Origin: Clostridia bacterium
GTDB lineage: Bacteria > Bacillota > Clostridia > Christensenellales > Borkfalkiaceae
Direction: 5' to 3'
Length of the DNA: 64,000 nt
Assembly (NCBI GenBank): GCA_017457225.1
Contig: JAFTHW010000004.1
Location: 43,919 to 107,918 of the forward strand
The notes beneath the pieces are model-generated. The model did no database searches. It was not told where the DNA came from and was given only the letters and a program-made list of their open reading frames with translations. Below, in pieces: positions 3,559-59,486 of this stretch; within the stretch, counting starts at the first letter, position 1, and each line of letters starts with the position of its first letter. Both the position numbers and the translations under genes were made by a program.

Positions 3559-3933
3559 TTATTTGACGGAACGATATAACGACAATAAAAGAAGTTTCAA
3601 ATCCTTTAAAACGAGGTCGATTTTTTCTTCTATTTTTTCTAAACGTTGTTTTTCGAGTTTGCGTTCGCGTTCCTGCTCTTCGGTTTTTTGTTTTTCTTGT
3701 TCTAAGAGTAGTCGTTTTTCCAACGCTTCCTCTGAAAGATTTTCAATGGAAGCTTTTTTCGGTCTGCCGCGGTTGGTAAAAAACGGTTCGACTGCGCCCT
3801 CTTGCACTTTGATAATTTCTTGAATCAATTCGGCTTTTTTCAATTTCGTAGGAACTCGTACGCCGATCAACTGTCCGATCGTACGCAAAGAATAAATGGG
3901 CAAATCGTTTAGGAATTCAATCGTGTAAGTCAT
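3559..3933 (-). CDS. small SAP/Rho_N-like protein with AT-hook-like motif and charged coiled coil (locus A)
   Basis: The 124-residue protein starts with a helix-extended-loop-helix pattern (LPIYSLRTIGQLIGVRVPT, then LKKAELIQEII) typical of SAP/HeH/Rho_N modules, which bind nucleic acid. A GRPKK AT-hook-like patch follows near residue 58, then a Glu/Gln/Lys/Arg-rich coiled coil (about 70-110) and a Leu-rich end. The start is set by AAGGAAG 7 nt before the ATG. Upstream on the same strand are a terminator and a structured RNA (3960-4159). A relative with the same N-terminal signature lies behind a similar RNA at 35019. The domain reading is inference; the exact function is not recognised. Confidence 0.65.
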   Translation of the reverse strand: MTYTIEFLNDLPIYSLRTIGQLIGVRVPTKLKKAELIQEIIKVQEGAVEPFFTNRGRPKKASIENLSEEALEKRLLLEQEKQKTEEQERERKLEKQRLEKIEEKIDLVLKDLKLLLLSLYRSVK

Positions 3934-3959
3934 ATTTTTCTTCCTTTGTGTAGATTTTA

Positions 3960-4159
3960 TAAAAAGAGTGCGTCAACCGAAGCCGACGCACCGAAAAACG
4001 CCAAACTCCGATTGTTACCACACAAAACCCGATAGAATTTTACATACTCTAAAGCCGGTGGAATTCGCGCTTTTGCCTATTCTATAGGCTTTAAAGTATG
4101 AGATAAAAAAGGGAAAAATATTCCCTGCAAAGTTCTATCGATATTTTGTTTTGTGTGGT
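3960..4159 (-). ncRNA. structured leader RNA A with terminator
   Basis: Read on the minus strand, the RNA should start at about 4159 on the 5' arm of a 12-bp closing stem (ACCACACAAAAC with GTTTTGTGTGGT, 4148-4159 with 4017-4028). Inside are CGATAGAA/TTCTATCG, a small U-loop hairpin GGGAATATTTTTCCC, a 14-bp stem (CATACTTTAAAGCC with GGCTTTAGAGTATG) and an internal strand containing GCGCG. A terminator follows (GTGCGTC/GACGCAC plus TCTTTTT, 3959-3991), 26 bp before the gene at 3933. The plan suggests a riboswitch-like or protein-controlled attenuator, or a stable small RNA. It matches no Rfam class I can recall. The same layout recurs at 34735-34914. Confidence 0.7.
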
Positions 4160-4165
4160 TGTTTC

Positions 4166-4194
4166 AGTATAACACAAAAACGGGAAATTATCAA
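4166..4194 (-). promoter_or_regulatory. sigma-A promoter of structured RNA A
   Basis: On the minus strand TTGATA (4189-4194) and TATACT (4166-4171) are 17 bp apart. The expected start, 6-7 nt downstream, is the first base of the RNA closing stem. Confidence 0.8.
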
Positions 4195-4266: not shown

Positions 4267-4455
4267 TTGACAATGCGATAAAACTGTGATATAATATCAA
4301 AGATAGAAAAAAGCACGGTAAAATTTCCGTAAAGACGCCTCGGCAAGCACGACCTCGAAGCAAGGAACGACGTTCCCCATAGCGTAGATAAGGGGAGATT
4401 GCGGAGGTATTTTTTTCGGATTTTTATAAAAATTTATTTTTACAGGAGTTTTTTT
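4267..4455 (+). promoter_or_regulatory. promoter and structured leader of the NCS2 permease gene
   Basis: TTGACA (4267-4272) and TATAAT (4290-4295) are 17 bp apart. The 150-nt leader contains ACGGTAAAATTTCCGT (near-palindrome), GGAAC-GAC-GTTCC (4364-4376) and a CCCC/GGGG pairing around 4375-4395. No reading frame of note lies in it. It does not match the purine riboswitch core or a PyrR site as I remember them, so the regulatory type is open. Confidence 0.55.
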
Positions 4456-5871
4456 ATGGAAAACACAACCGCAAAAAACGATCTTGTGTTGGACGTGCAC
4501 GAAGTACCTGCGAAAAAATCGCAGTGGGCGCTTCTGTCTATTCAACACATCCTGGCAATGTTCGTGGCTTGTATTACCGTACCCCTCATCATCGGTACGT
4601 CGATCCCCGCAACGATCATTTCCGCAGGCGTAGGTACGCTTATCTACATTCTGCTCACGAAACAGAAATCCCCCGTTGTATTGTCGAGCTCGTTCGCCTA
4701 TCTTTCGGCGATGGCGATCGTATTCAATCTCGGCGGCGGAAACAACTATCTCGCTCTTGCGATCGGTATGACGCTCGTTGGGCTCGTTTACGTAGCCGTA
4801 GCGCTCGTCGTTAAGAAAGTCGGTACGGGTTGGCTGTTTAAATTGTTGCCTACGATCGTAGTGGGTCCCGTTATTATGGTTATCGGTCTTGGTCTTTCCG
4901 GATCGGCGATCAACAACCTTACGGGCGCTGCTGTCGGTACGTATAACCTTTTGTATATCCTTTGCGGTGTAGTCGCGTTGTTTGTTACCGCGATCGCAGC
5001 GTACTACGGCAAGAAGACGATCTCCTTGATTCCGTTCGTAATCGGTATGGGTGCAGGCTATTTGTTGGCGCTGATCATCACGCTGATTGGGTACTACGCT
5101 TGCGATTGGGAATACGCGCAGATCATCAACTTCGCGCCCATCGTAGAGAACTTCAAAGATATAAAGGTTTCTAGCTTCATCGGTTACGATTGCTTCGGTT
5201 TCCTCGATTGGGGCGCAAATGCAAAGACTTGGGAATGGAGTCATCTTTTGACAATCGTTCTTGCCGTTGTTCCCGTATCGTTCGTTACGATCTGCGAACA
5301 CATCGGCGACCACCTCAACCTCGGCGGCGTTATCCATAAAGACCTTTTGAAAGATCCCGGACTTGACCGTACGCTTATGGGCGACGGTATCGCTACGGCG
5401 GTTTCGGGCTGGCTCTGCGGTTGCGCGAACACGACCTACGGCGAAAACGTAGCGGTTGTCGGCGTTACCAAAGTTGCTTCCGTAAAAGTTATTACGACGG
5501 CTTGTATCGCAACCATCGCGCTCGGCTTGTTCACGCCGCTTATGGTTGTCGTACAGACGATCCCCGCTTGCGTAACGGGCGGCGTATCCCTTGCTTTGTA
5601 CGGCTTCATCGCTTCTTCGGGCGTTAAGATGCTCATCAATGAAAAGGTGGACTTCTCGGAGAGCCGTAACATCTTCATCGCAGCTTCGATCCTCGTTGCA
5701 GGTATCGGCGGGCTTACCATTCAATTCAAGGTTGCAGGCGAAATGGTTACCATCACGTCTACGGCAATCGCGATGATCCTCGGTATCGTACTCAACGTAG
5801 TTTTGAAAGAAAAGAAAGCAGAAGCTACGGAAGAAGTAGTCGCAGAAGAAACGGCGGCGGAAATCGAGTAA
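4456..5871 (+). CDS. NCS2-family uracil/xanthine permease
   Basis: The 471-residue membrane protein has about 12-14 hydrophobic segments and opens with QHILAMFVACITVPLIIG, the NCS2 (nucleobase:cation symporter 2) first helix. Later phrases such as FVTICEHIGDH, GLDRTLMGDGIATAVSG and NTTYGENVAVVGVTKVAS carry the conserved Glu/His and NxTxxxEN-type substrate-site residues. The family imports uracil, xanthine or uric acid with protons; the exact base cannot be told. The C-terminal tail is Glu-rich. The ATG at 4456 is chosen for the GGAG 8 nt upstream. A structured leader precedes it and a terminator (5905-5933) follows. Confidence 0.9.
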   Translation: MENTTAKNDLVLDVHEVPAKKSQWALLSIQHILAMFVACITVPLIIGTSIPATIISAGVGTLIYILLTKQKSPVVLSSSFAYLSAMAIVFNLGGGNNYLALAIGMTLVGLVYVAVALVVKKVGTGWLFKLLPTIVVGPVIMVIGLGLSGSAINNLTGAAVGTYNLLYILCGVVALFVTAIAAYYGKKTISLIPFVIGMGAGYLLALIITLIGYYACDWEYAQIINFAPIVENFKDIKVSSFIGYDCFGFLDWGANAKTWEWSHLLTIVLAVVPVSFVTICEHIGDHLNLGGVIHKDLLKDPGLDRTLMGDGIATAVSGWLCGCANTTYGENVAVVGVTKVASVKVITTACIATIALGLFTPLMVVVQTIPACVTGGVSLALYGFIASSGVKMLINEKVDFSESRNIFIAASILVAGIGGLTIQFKVAGEMVTITSTAIAMILGIVLNVVLKEKKAEATEEVVAEETAAEIE

Positions 5872-34267: not shown

Positions 34268-34342
34268 GCAGGTGTCGCCTAGCGGTATGGCGGCAGCTTC
34301 CCAAGCTGCTTCCGGCGAGTTCGACTCTCGTCACCTGCTCCA
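34268..34342 (+). tRNA. tRNA-Gly(CCC)
   Basis: The acceptor stem GCAGGTG pairs with CACCTGC (34332-34338), the anticodon arm is GCAGC-TTCCCAA-GCTGC with anticodon CCC, the T arm holds GTTCGAC and CCA is encoded. A promoter TTGACA-N17-TATAAT lies at about 34202-34231. A terminator (34347-34379) follows. The 3' end is repeated at 34514. Confidence 0.95.
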
Positions 34343-34534
34343 AAAAGAAAAACGTCCCAACGGGGCGTTTTTCTTTTTGGCATTAGATAATGAGGGAGAG
34401 TCGAACTCCAAGGGGGAATTTTGCGTATAAAAAACGGTTAATAATCGTTTTTAGCAAAATTAGCCGAGCAATTTATAATTGCGAAGGCGGTGGTTTTCCC
34501 TAGGAAAAACACGGACTCTCGTCACCTGCTCCAA
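34323..34534. repeat. 21-bp direct repeat of the tRNA-Gly 3' end, att-like scar
   Basis: The last 20 bases of tRNA-Gly plus one A (34323-34343) recur exactly at 34514-34534. Between them lie the tRNA terminator and about 130 bp without a gene, including GAGAGTCGAACTC near 34394, an inverted copy of the T-arm. This is what remains when an element integrated at a tRNA 3' end is lost by deletion, or a minimal cassette. No integrase is near. Confidence 0.6.
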
Positions 34535-34539
34535 CCAAG

Positions 34540-34699: not shown

Positions 34700-34728
34700 T
34701 TGACTTTTGAAGAAAAATTGCATATAAT
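34700..34728 (+). promoter_or_regulatory. sigma-A promoter of structured RNA B
   Basis: TTGACT (34700-34705) and TATAAT (34723-34728) have a 17-bp spacer; the start falls at about 34735, the first base of the closing stem. Confidence 0.85.
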
Positions 34729-34734
34729 ATAGAT

Positions 34735-34914
34735 GGCACTTCAAATTGCGGCTTTTTTCCGTATAATATTTAATCTCAAAGGATATAGTTCTGGTAGGAC
34801 TATATCTTAATCGCGTATACAAAATCCTTTGAGATAAGTATTTGGAGTGCCAACTCAAGCGATAACGGTATATTCTACGGTGCCGTTCTCGTGTAGGACG
34901 GCATCTTTTTATTT
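34735..34914 (+). ncRNA. structured leader RNA B with terminator
   Basis: The 180-nt RNA starts on the 5' arm of a 13-bp closing stem (TGGCACTTCAAAT 34734-34746 with ATTTGGAGTGCCA 34840-34852, one G-U). Inside are a small CGG-U6-CCG hairpin, a perfect 12-bp stem ATCTCAAAGGAT/ATCCTTTGAGAT (34773-34784 with 34824-34835), a terminal hairpin GATATAGT/ACTATATC, and an internal strand with TCGCG. An AACGG/CCGTT pairing competes with the terminator stem TGCCG...CGGCA (34881-34903) before TCTTTTTATTTT. The order of parts matches RNA A (3960-4159) with different bases. The gene at 35019 follows. Confidence 0.72.
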
Positions 34915-35018
34915 TAAAAATCCGTAAAAATATTAAATAAGGGACGCAAAAGAAAAATGAGCAAACAAGATATTTCGGAGTTTAAAATCTCCTGCCACCG
35001 GTATTAATTTCACTAAGT

Positions 35019-35411
35019 GTGAACGCATTACGTTCTTATGGTAGATCGTTGGAATTAAGAACGCCGACCGTACTAAAAAAATCCCAACTCGTTCAGGAAA
35101 TCGTAGGGGTGCTGTGCGGCGAAATTGCTCCCAAAAGGAATAAACGTGGCGCGCCTGTGAAAGATAAAAGCGTGCCGCAAGAGATTGTGGATAAGATAGA
35201 GGAGTTAAAACAGAAATATTTGTCCGAAGATACGGAGATTTTTGAAGAAAAGAATCAGAGCGATACCGCCGTAGATTGTGTGCAAGAGTCCTTGCCTTTG
35301 GCAACTGCGGTAGAATCAAAAGCGTCTGTTTCCATACAGCTTGCCGTGGAAGTTTCTTCCCTTAACGAAAGACAAAAACAACTGTTACACGAATTTTTAA
35401 AGAGTTTATAA
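35019..35411 (+). CDS. SAP/Rho_N-like small protein (locus B), 5' end possibly frameshifted
   Basis: The frame carries ALRSYGRSLELRTPTVLKKS then QLVQEIVGVL, matching the N-terminal signature of the protein at 3559-3933 (LRTIGQLIGVRVPTKLKKAE, LIQEII), then a basic KRNKRGAPVK patch and an acidic, helical C-terminal part. The listed GTG start has no ribosome site. An ATG at 34957 in another frame gives MSKQDISEFKIS before a stop at 35005, and the frame used here reads on from LPPVLISLSVNALRS just after that, so one base may be missing or extra between 34986 and 35004. Function unknown; nucleic-acid binding is inferred. Confidence 0.55.
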   Translation: MNALRSYGRSLELRTPTVLKKSQLVQEIVGVLCGEIAPKRNKRGAPVKDKSVPQEIVDKIEELKQKYLSEDTEIFEEKNQSDTAVDCVQESLPLATAVESKASVSIQLAVEVSSLNERQKQLLHEFLKSL

Positions 35412-57898: not shown

Positions 57899-58244
57899 CT
57901 ATGCGTTTATGCAAAAGGAAACACGGCAGAGTTCGACTGTTCCACCGTGTTTTTACTTGCAAAATGGGTTTTAATTGTGGTTAAAAATGTTGATATTTCG
58001 ACCTTGAAATTTTGGGGCAGTTTCGCGCAGTATTCGCGCAATCCCTTTATTTTCAAGGGGTTTAGGGGTATTGTGGTTAGGTTCAATTCCTGTCGACCGC
58101 ACCAAATATGCAGTTTTTTAAGGATTTTTCCCGAAAAACTGCTATTTTTTTGCCTCTATTTAGCTAATTATACAATTATTTTTTGCAATTTGTCAATCAT
58201 TTGGGGAGAGAATTGGGGAACAATTTTCTCCCCAATTTCTTTTT

Positions 58245-59486
58245 TTATACATCAAATTTTACTTTTGCCATTTGCTCTTTCATGAACTCGTCGGAGAAAT
58301 GTGTGTAAACACGTCCTACGAGTCTTTCGCTGCTATCGCCCATCCATATATCGACAATGTCCGGGCGAACATATTGTTGGCATACCGTTGCGAACGTATG
58401 GCGTAAATAATATTGAGTGATTTGTTCGCTACCCATTATTCTTTTGAATATTCTATTAAGAACGTCTGTTCTATGGGGGTTGACAATGGGTTGCTCTAAA
58501 TTGAGCTTTTCCCGTGCCTGTAAGGGTACGGGAATTTTTTTGTATTCAATTTTCCCGTTTTTCCGTTTTGCATTACGGACGATCAAAAAATCTCCCTCAA
58601 TGCGGGCGTCGCTCAATTCGCAAGGGCGAAGACCGAAATAAAGCATAAAAAGGAAAGTGGACTTGTAGGACGAAAATTCATTGGTAGACAGCCGATCCAA
58701 AAGGTGCTTTTGTTCCTCCTTAGTCAAAGCTCTACGTTCGGATATGCGTTCAGCCTTTTTAAAAGGAATCAGCATAACGGGATTATAAGTTAAGATACCG
58801 CTTGCAATTGCATATTTAAATATAGAATTGAAGATTGTTCTTAAATCTTCGTATAAGCGTGGCTTTTTACCATTAAGGATTTTATCGATATCCAAAGTAC
58901 GTATTTCTTTTATTGGTTTTTCGCCTAACGTAGCGCGCATATAGCGCCGATAATAACTTTCGTAATTGTTATATGTACGTTCGTGAATTTTACCTTTCTT
59001 AAATGCAAGCCATTCCGCAGCGATTTCTCGAAAAAGATTTTTCTCGCTACGAATAATACGGACTTGATATTGATCGATATTTTCGGGCTTTGTCATTTCA
59101 ATAAATTTTCGCTTGGCTTCCTTAATATCTTTAGAGGAAGCCGAAATATTATATCCATTCCGTCTATATCTGATTTCATAAACAAAAGTCTTTTTATGCT
59201 TTAAGCCGCTTTCCCGTTTAAGAATACGAGCGACTAATCCGTTTGCAATGAACTCTTTTTTTAATGTTTCTGCCATGTTTGCGACCTCTTCTTTTGTGAA
59301 TTTTATGGTCGCTGTTATCGATTTTTCTATTTGAGTATACGGAGTATACGTTTTGTTTTCTTCATCAATGACTTTCTCTATAAGCTTTCCAAATTCGCCT
59401 GAGAGATTGATGATTTCTCGTCTACTGCCACACATCATTAAACGTGTGGTAAGCATTGTCAATTCGTCTGATATTCTACTTTTCAT
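58245..59486 (-). CDS. int: tyrosine recombinase / integrase of element 2
   Basis: The 413-residue protein has an N-terminal arm-binding domain (about 50-115; FVYEIRYRRNGYNISASSKD), a core-binding domain and the catalytic domain with Arg in YFGLRPCELS, the box YYLRHTFATVC (Tyr in place of the first His), GDSSERLVGR and the Tyr in RVYTHF. The ATG at 59486 is preceded by AAGGAG. It is 140 bp from the central att site. A LexA-type box lies just upstream. Confidence 0.92.
   Translation of the reverse strand: MKSRISDELTMLTTRLMMCGSRREIINLSGEFGKLIEKVIDEENKTYTPYTQIEKSITATIKFTKEEVANMAETLKKEFIANGLVARILKRESGLKHKKTFVYEIRYRRNGYNISASSKDIKEAKRKFIEMTKPENIDQYQVRIIRSEKNLFREIAAEWLAFKKGKIHERTYNNYESYYRRYMRATLGEKPIKEIRTLDIDKILNGKKPRLYEDLRTIFNSIFKYAIASGILTYNPVMLIPFKKAERISERRALTKEEQKHLLDRLSTNEFSSYKSTFLFMLYFGLRPCELSDARIEGDFLIVRNAKRKNGKIEYKKIPVPLQAREKLNLEQPIVNPHRTDVLNRIFKRIMGSEQITQYYLRHTFATVCQQYVRPDIVDIWMGDSSERLVGRVYTHFSDEFMKEQMAKVKFDV

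Follow-up and report, generated by a model that had tools for sequence, protein, structure and literature searches.

The promoter, leader RNA and small gene at two loci

The window, that is, the whole 64,000-nucleotide stretch of Clostridia bacterium DNA that we analyzed, contains two loci, A on the minus strand and B on the plus strand, at which a predicted promoter, a structured RNA, an intrinsic terminator and a gene for a small protein follow one another (Table 1). A preliminary description had proposed this order for locus A, with the RNA running from a 12-bp closing stem through inner stems to the terminator, and the fold of RNA A agrees: the segment 4165-3955 folds at -77.8 kcal/mol, shuffled versions of it average -42.4 (z -9.1), and none of 200 does as well. 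It had also stated that locus B repeats the order of promoter, closing stem, terminator and Rho_N-like gene, which we confirmed (z -6.1 for the fold of RNA B; 0 of 200 shuffles were as good). The scan expects 1.2 sites like promoter A by chance, so the weight of that promoter comes from the family described below.

In both RNAs one strand, S2, has two possible partners. In RNA A, strand S1 (CGAATTCC) can form a pseudoknot with GGAGTTTG (4009-4002) at -10.1 kcal/mol, and the alternative antiterminator hairpin is present in the computed fold of 4165-3955; the script value of -4.1 for this antiterminator arises because row A is misaligned in that alignment. In RNA B, S2 can take S1 as its partner or, alternatively, the stretch around CCGTTCTCG (34883-34891, -11.1 kcal/mol). 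By eye, a small hairpin is also possible on the loop side of P3 in RNA A (4089-4075).

The ATG of gene A lies about 28 nt downstream of the RNA A terminator. For gene B, the ATG expected from its relatives (34957) is out of frame with the open frame 34986-35411, so the gene looks frame-broken; the apparent break just after the start (34957-35020) may be an assembly error, decay or a programmed frameshift. Close to locus A, a leader-like intergenic stretch (4297-4455) lies ahead of a gene that by eye resembles a permease gene (ATG near 4456), and this stretch had no Rfam match.

Table 1. Predicted features of loci A and B, in window positions.
Feature	Position	Strand	Basis or detail
Promoter of RNA A, TTGATA-17-TATACT	4166-4194	-	Sequence scan and family pattern
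RNA A, switch-like leader of about 198 nt, closing stem to terminator end	3962-4160	-	Fold; R3 model
RNA A closing stem P1 (12 bp), 5' arm	4148-4159	-	Fold
RNA A closing stem P1, 3' arm	4017-4028	-	Fold
RNA A second stem (9 bp)	4141-4133 / 4037-4029	-	Fold
RNA A hairpin P2, U-rich loop	4110-4126	-	Fold
RNA A long inner stem P3, arms about 4100-4087 / 4056-4043	4043-4100	-	Fold
RNA A GCGCG strand	4070-4066	-	
RNA A pseudoknot strand S1 (CGAATTCC)	4060-4067	-	Pairing energy
RNA A switching strand S2 (CAATCGGAGTTTGGC)	4000-4014	-	4009-4002 pairs S1; 4014-4006 pairs S3
RNA A intrinsic terminator, -12.0 kcal/mol, then T	3967-3992	-	Fold; energy
RNA A antiterminator partner S3, within terminator	3982-3974	-	
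Gene A, 124 aa, relative of the Rho N-terminal module, GRPKK patch	3559-3933	-	Open frame; protein matches
Promoter of RNA B, TTGACT-17-TATAAT	34700-34728	+	Sequence scan
RNA B, switch-like leader of about 178 nt	34733-34910	+	Fold; R2 and R3 models
RNA B closing stem P1	34734-34746 (5' arm) / 34840-34852 (3' arm)	+	Fold; positions approximate
RNA B stem P3, 34775-34781 / 34827-34833	within 34775-34833	+	Fold; covariation in 22 and 101 relatives
RNA B apical hairpin P4, stacked on P3	34782-34789 / 34799-34806	+	Fold; covariation in 22 and 101 relatives
RNA B pseudoknot strand S1 (ATCGC)	34810-34814	+	Pairs GCGAT 34859-34863, -7.1 kcal/mol
RNA B switching strand S2 (ACTCAAGCGATAACGG)	34853-34868	+	Pairing energies
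RNA B intrinsic terminator, -12.3 kcal/mol, overlapping antiterminator partner S3	34879-34905	+	
Gene B, small Rho-N-like protein	34957-35411	+	Open frame 34986-35411

RNAs A and B belong to one family

We searched 57 genomes of the genus with the pattern GGTATATNNTACNGTGCCG, allowing at most one mismatch. The pattern matched in 19 of the 57 genomes and its reversed control in none. Twenty-two of the 27 places that it matched were aligned with MAFFT to give the core alignment A2. Four others (L050, L051, L060 and L072) were left out as unrelated by eye, and a fifth (L062) was left out because it is cut by the contig end. Model R1, built from A2, gave 111 matches (A3), from which model R2 was built; A3 keeps one antisense match (L048:1584-1668), which is counted both in the 111 and in the 78 gene-linked RNAs given below. 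The weak, mostly antisense matches of A4 were excluded from the counts, and alignment A5 (101 rows) was made from 93 of the 96 sources of A4. With R2 we recruited 60 RNAs from genomes in other orders of the class, and these gave model R3 and alignment A7 (60 rows, 58 distinct, including one weak match, L240:1150-1261, E 0.0093).

R2 was built without RNA A and had RNA B in its training set. It has only two matches in the window at E<=1, 34769-34910 (119.9 bits) and 3962-4101 (26.2 bits, E 0.028 in 321 kb), and RNA A was absent from the R2 search of the whole own genome at E<=0.01. R3 recovered both RNAs in the window, RNA B at 63.4 bits (E 3.2e-10) and RNA A (3962-4107) at 56.8 bits (E 7.2e-9), and it also found an A-like RNA in a sister species (L041; 49.8 bits, E 1.9e-7). 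These two are the only clear R3 matches in the window; the next, at 58191-58281 (21.4 bits), was rejected because it reads as an ordinary terminator. With filters off RNA A scored 57 bits, and the next match in 3 kb scored 14.4. RNA A deviates from the family form in its apical part, and its R3 score indicates that it is a family member nearer the class-wide form than the form dominant in its own genus. By these model scores RNAs A and B are homologous, and the earlier proposal that two unlinked loci represent a real RNA family holds.

Covariation and mutually exclusive pairings

We then compared the pairings among relatives. The preliminary description had named covariation in homologues as a check, and the signal is strong, with two-sided changes on both A2 and A5. 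On A2 (22 rows, pseudoknot included), which was not fitted to the structure, two-sided changes occur in 12 of 27 pairs versus 8.1 in shuffled alignments, and in 9 of the 15 pairs of P3 and P4. In 500 shuffles of A2, three of five covariation measures stayed above all shuffles, one was reached by 1 and one by 22. A5 and A7 were fitted to the structure. On A5 all 20 model pairs (P3, P4 and the terminator) have two-sided changes, in 587 cells versus 188 shuffled, and 93.3% of the cells are paired versus 65.2% shuffled. On A7 the paired cells are 94.9% versus 63.0% shuffled, and 19 pairs have a two-sided change, a number reached by 53 of 500 shuffles. A structured core supported by covariation, as expected of a riboswitch, was thus found on A2, A5 and A7.

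The P1, S1:S2 and S2:S3 pairings were part of no model, and for these we compared the energies of matched and permuted strands. Among the A5 family members, P1 reached -16.7 kcal/mol matched versus -9.9 permuted (z -31), the S1:S2 pseudoknot -6.77 versus -5.07 (z -9.4; -6.7 in 29 diverse rows) and the S2:S3 antiterminator -11.32 versus -7.09 (z -18.5; -9.6 in the diverse rows), whereas the control pairing S1:S3 gave z +1.4 (-0.3). For the 60 RNAs of other orders (A7), z was -3.7 for S1:S2, -12.1 for S2:S3 and +0.7 for the control (-3.9, -10.1 and +0.5 in 31 diverse rows). The pseudoknot signal is weak in this wider class (z -3.7), and one pseudoknot position is unpaired in 14 of the 22 genus members of A2.

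By computation, the pseudoknot, the antiterminator and the terminator are mutually exclusive in 96 of 101 members; the criterion was an overlap of 3 nt or more between antiterminator and terminator, together with 3 nt or more of S2 used by both antiterminator and pseudoknot. The mean energies of antiterminator and terminator are the same over the 101 rows (-13.1 and -13.1). The computed folds thus provide what the expression platform of a riboswitch would have, namely mutually exclusive structures.

Promoter position and downstream genes

A -10-like box lies 4-9 nt upstream of P1 in 92 of 101 members, versus 19 of 101 at random positions. On the other side of the RNA, 78 of the 111 R1 matches have a same-strand gene within 130 nt downstream, and 48 of these 78 genes start 15-41 nt after the RNA. 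The 33 that fail the 130-nt rule comprise 10 upstream tandem copies, 2 with mis-called starts and about 21 others, which run off the contig or have no clear same-strand gene. The position directly upstream of a same-strand gene, which is expected of a riboswitch, was therefore found with about 21 exceptions in 111.

Eleven of these exceptions face a convergent regulator gene, which is Cro/C1-like in seven cases (L055, L063, L066, L078, L142, L179 and L181) and AraC-type in four (L052, L090, L128 and L174). Pfam confirmed the regulators in all four AraC-type cases and in the two Cro/C1-type cases that were scanned (L055 and L066). Read-through of such RNAs would be antisense to the regulator. 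Tandem RNAs make up 11 listed pairs at 9 loci of the 111-set, each copy having its own terminator. At one locus (L040 3684-4303, genome G026) three tandem family RNAs with their own terminators precede one Rho-N gene, and the stems differ between the copies.

SD-like sites precede the downstream ORF in 69 of 107 cases in the 111-set and in 40 of 57 in other orders; for the divergent side the counts are 12 of 66 and 5 of 19. ORFs of at least 50 aa are common on that side too (46 of 66 and 12 of 19), so that the presence of an ORF alone says little.

One alternative is that the short terminated RNA is itself what the locus makes and acts in trans as a small RNA, while neighboring genes receive some read-through. 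The promoter-like box in 92 of 101 members together with the terminator, the tandem copies at 9 loci and the roughly 21 RNAs without a clear same-strand gene would all fit such an RNA. A stand-alone RNA would, however, not be expected to have a conserved pairing between S2 and part of the terminator (z -18.5 and -12.1), nor nearby genes preceded by SD-like sites, and we consider this explanation improbable. The tandem copies and the 11 regulator-facing copies go beyond what a plain leader explains.

The genes behind the leader are diverse, the commonest being those of YpsA-like SLOG proteins, BspA/SLH-type surface proteins and small proteins. The 111 R1 matches, with upstream tandem copies counted with their gene, fall into downstream clusters of 30 (SLOG), 27 (lipoprotein or surface protein) and 10 (Rho-N), two clusters of 5 and smaller ones. 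Simple motif rules applied to the 87 called ORFs of the same set found 19 SLOG, 17 BspA-like and 6 Rho-N proteins. Of two SLOG-like proteins scanned, one matched Pfam YpsA at 3e-5, just under the cut-off, the second (its first 110 aa) had no Pfam match, and NCBIfam named neither. Both lipoproteins scanned at length have BspA-type LRR_5 repeats. At three SLOG loci (L086, L096 and L104) the start codon follows the terminator immediately, so the 3' arm of the terminator may also cover the ribosome site.

In other orders a same-strand ORF lies within 150 nt in 49 of the 57 matches with enough sequence. By simple rules, 27 of these 49 ORFs have a signal- or membrane-like start and 9 have a BspA-like motif, and LRR_5, SLH, Cu_amine_oxidN1, RCC1 and GDSL were each found in one of five other-order proteins scanned. 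NCBIfam named one of nine proteins scanned, and PHROGs two of five, weakly.

The Rho-N-like proteins and their relation to the RNA

Protein A matches protein B (36%, E 1.9e-8). It also matches a 516-aa frame of its own genome, whose 515-aa product aligns over residues 188-504 with solved structures of Rho (best 5.8e-54) and has a match to Pfam ATP-synt_ab. Matches to protein A were found in 36 of 61 genomes (own included), mostly as frames of about 500 aa, Rho-like where read and confirmed as Rho only for the window's own genome, the rest being small stand-alone frames. Both proteins align with the first 60-95 residues of the 500-aa proteins of related genomes. By these alignments, proteins A and B are relatives of the Rho N-terminal module; Rho has RNA-binding and ATPase domains, whereas proteins A and B lack both and have C-terminal parts of their own instead. 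Protein A was unmatched by Pfam Rho_N (PF07498, cut-off 24.9 bits) at E<=1, and protein B and a relative scored below the cut-off (14.5 and 18.7 bits).

We asked how closely the RNA is tied to these proteins. The preliminary description had proposed an RNA-protein pair, in which the SAP/Rho_N protein would bind its own leader or have the RNA as a stable partner. Some of the RNAs are indeed linked in cis to Rho_N-like genes, namely 10 of the 111 (8 adjacent, 2 upstream tandem copies). Seen from the protein, 13 small or partial Rho-N frames comprise six with the RNA upstream, four without it and three that are cut or resemble pieces of Rho. Among stand-alone Rho-N genes found via the protein or in the window, A and B included, the RNA lies in front of 8 of 12, a count that becomes 10 of 14 if genome G063 (L121, L180) is added, which is biased because these were found via the RNA. 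These fractions are what a dedicated pair would have in its favor. Against it, the other genes downstream of the RNA outnumber Rho_N (30 SLOG and 27 lipoprotein versus 10), and among the 49 called ORFs of other orders (60 matches) the simple rule, which undercounts (it found 6 in the set of 111), found a Rho_N motif in none. In addition, four stand-alone Rho_N genes (in G036, G003, G034 and G035C19) have a divergent HTH gene ahead of them and not the RNA, the HTH assignment being Pfam HTH_3 for the first three and by eye for G035C19. RNAs lying apart from SAP/Rho_N genes had been named in advance as evidence against the pair, and most RNAs do lie elsewhere. As an exclusive pairing it is already contradicted, autoregulation by the protein is unsupported, and we regard a dedicated pair as highly unlikely. 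Because the leader precedes many different genes, among them those of surface proteins and small regulators, it would be a general gene switch, not a private partner.

A broader possibility is that an RNA-binding protein, perhaps a SLOG or Rho-N-like product, switches the leader by stabilizing one of its folds. Rho-N relatives, one sigma-70 region 4 protein and AbrB-type proteins are among the downstream products and would be candidates, but no one protein family is linked to all members, and by the simple rule the called downstream ORFs of other orders include no Rho-N gene. We hold such a protein switch to be possible, though doubtful.

Comparison with known RNA classes

A comparison with all Rfam families had been suggested at the outset, and no known class was matched. 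At the gathering cut-off, Rfam 15 found only tRNA and 5S in the window and 36 related loci. Low-threshold scans of A, B and one further member (L231) yielded no score close to a gathering cut-off; the matches of this kind on A and B, among them group I intron, proV and fstAT, were dismissed as far below their gathering scores. In the titles and openings of abstracts of a library that has few subscription papers, and in passages of PMC11109978 and PMC8632094, we found no published description of the leader RNA. The family has apparently not been described so far.

Several known systems resemble the leader in part. Terminator-type riboswitches (preQ1, c-di-GMP I and II) have a pseudoknot core, a shared switching strand and a terminator before the gene; the leader likewise has a core with a predicted pseudoknot, an S2 shared by core and antiterminator, and a terminator ahead of the gene. 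The gene set of c-di-GMP riboswitches is rich in surface proteins, which that of the leader recalls. Unlike the preQ1 and c-di-GMP riboswitches, however, the leader has its own promoter at P1 in nearly every copy, and it is without an Rfam match. T-box leaders choose between terminator and antiterminator in Firmicutes, and the leader shares this choice; no T-box match was found in the window, and the genes seen behind the leader are of other kinds than the aminoacyl-tRNA and amino-acid genes that T-boxes precede. Type III toxin-antitoxin loci have the same order of promoter, structured RNA, terminator and small gene. Pfam scans of the downstream proteins scanned found no ToxN-type endoribonuclease or other toxin family, and, unlike in type III loci, the proteins come from many unrelated families. 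The raiA motif is an Rfam family, whereas the leader matched no Rfam family at gathering score. According to PMC11706538, the raiA motif or ModT RNA is a large structured RNA conserved in Clostridia, and in these respects the leader is like it.

Distribution of the family

R1 found the family in 48 of 57 genus genomes, as did R2. In the order, R1 found it in at least 54 of 396 genomes and at least 18 of 142 genera. In the class, R2 found it in at least 45 of 391 sampled genomes (28 of 223 genera), 40 of the 45 belonging to other orders. Among 299 sampled genomes of the phylum, at least 9 of them from the same class, R2 matched only in the window's own genome. These counts are lower bounds because 7-10 candidates were scored per genome (54-55 in the genus).

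A genus genome carries up to 11 copies by R2. G029 has 11 family RNAs (L057, L175, L176, L177, L178, L185 and L188), several before paralogous small proteins, of which the one member scanned had no Pfam or NCBIfam match. The exact RNA pattern occurs in six named records, five ruminant-gut Clostridia bacterium MAGs of the RGIG series and one Clostridiales MAG. A viral scan with protein A found no relative, and searches of viral contigs (two exact RNA patterns) and plasmids (one RNA, distant blastn) gave no match, so searches of this sensitivity gave no indication that phages or plasmids carry the unit.

A model for the leader

Taken together, these data suggest that RNAs A and B very probably belong to a class-wide family of cis-acting leaders, terminator-type riboswitch-like attenuators with a putative ligand, which form a portable unit with their promoter. 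The comparison of related sequences shows the homology of the RNAs, the pairings and how they exclude one another, the place of the promoter and the linkage to genes. From these we infer that the leader changes between its two states in vivo, that the choice would be made by a small molecule or ion binding to the P3/P4/S1 core, and that the bound state would be OFF.

In the proposed mechanism, a dedicated sigma-70-type promoter would start the RNA at the first base of P1. P1 would enclose a variable hairpin and a long stem with an apical hairpin, leaving S1 unpaired on the 3' side of that stem, and S2, directly after P1, could pair either with S1 (pseudoknot) or with S3, a part of the terminator (antiterminator). 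When S2 is held by the pseudoknot, S3 would be free, the terminator would form and the RNA would end at about 200 nt (OFF). When S2 takes S3, RNA polymerase would read through into the gene that starts shortly after. The same promoter and leader would thereby serve genes for surface, SLOG, Rho-N-like and other small proteins.

What the leader might sense is more speculative. As a tentative proposal, this riboswitch class would respond to a signal inside the cell, perhaps a messenger derived from a nucleotide and handled by SLOG proteins, and set the make-up of the cell surface through BspA-type, SLH and other secreted proteins, with the promoter-leader unit moving as a cassette. The gene set points to surface remodelling, and as a leader without an Rfam match and with a clearly switch-like layout, the RNA would offer a testable entry point to a signal in uncultured Clostridia.

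Movement of the unit may have left a trace in genome G018 (L061 1230-1600), where the RNA and its promoter are flanked by a Rho-N gene on one side and, on the other, by a divergent Cro/C1-type gene and its promoter region. Ahead of the RNA is a gene-start vestige of 34 nt, 76% identical to the present start. In G036, G003 and G034 a divergent gene of the same kind lies directly before the Rho-N gene and the RNA is absent; the divergent gene is Pfam HTH_3 in all four genomes. This arrangement suggests to us that in G018 an already present gene acquired the promoter-leader unit upstream of it. It would be a regulatory unit that moves between genes, here set between a repressor-type promoter and the Rho-N gene which that promoter directly serves in relatives.

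Near locus B, the 3' end of the tRNA-Gly gene (34268-34342) recurs downstream, near 34513-34535, which resembles an integration scar. Similar tRNA-end sequence also precedes the Rho-N genes of G036 and G003.
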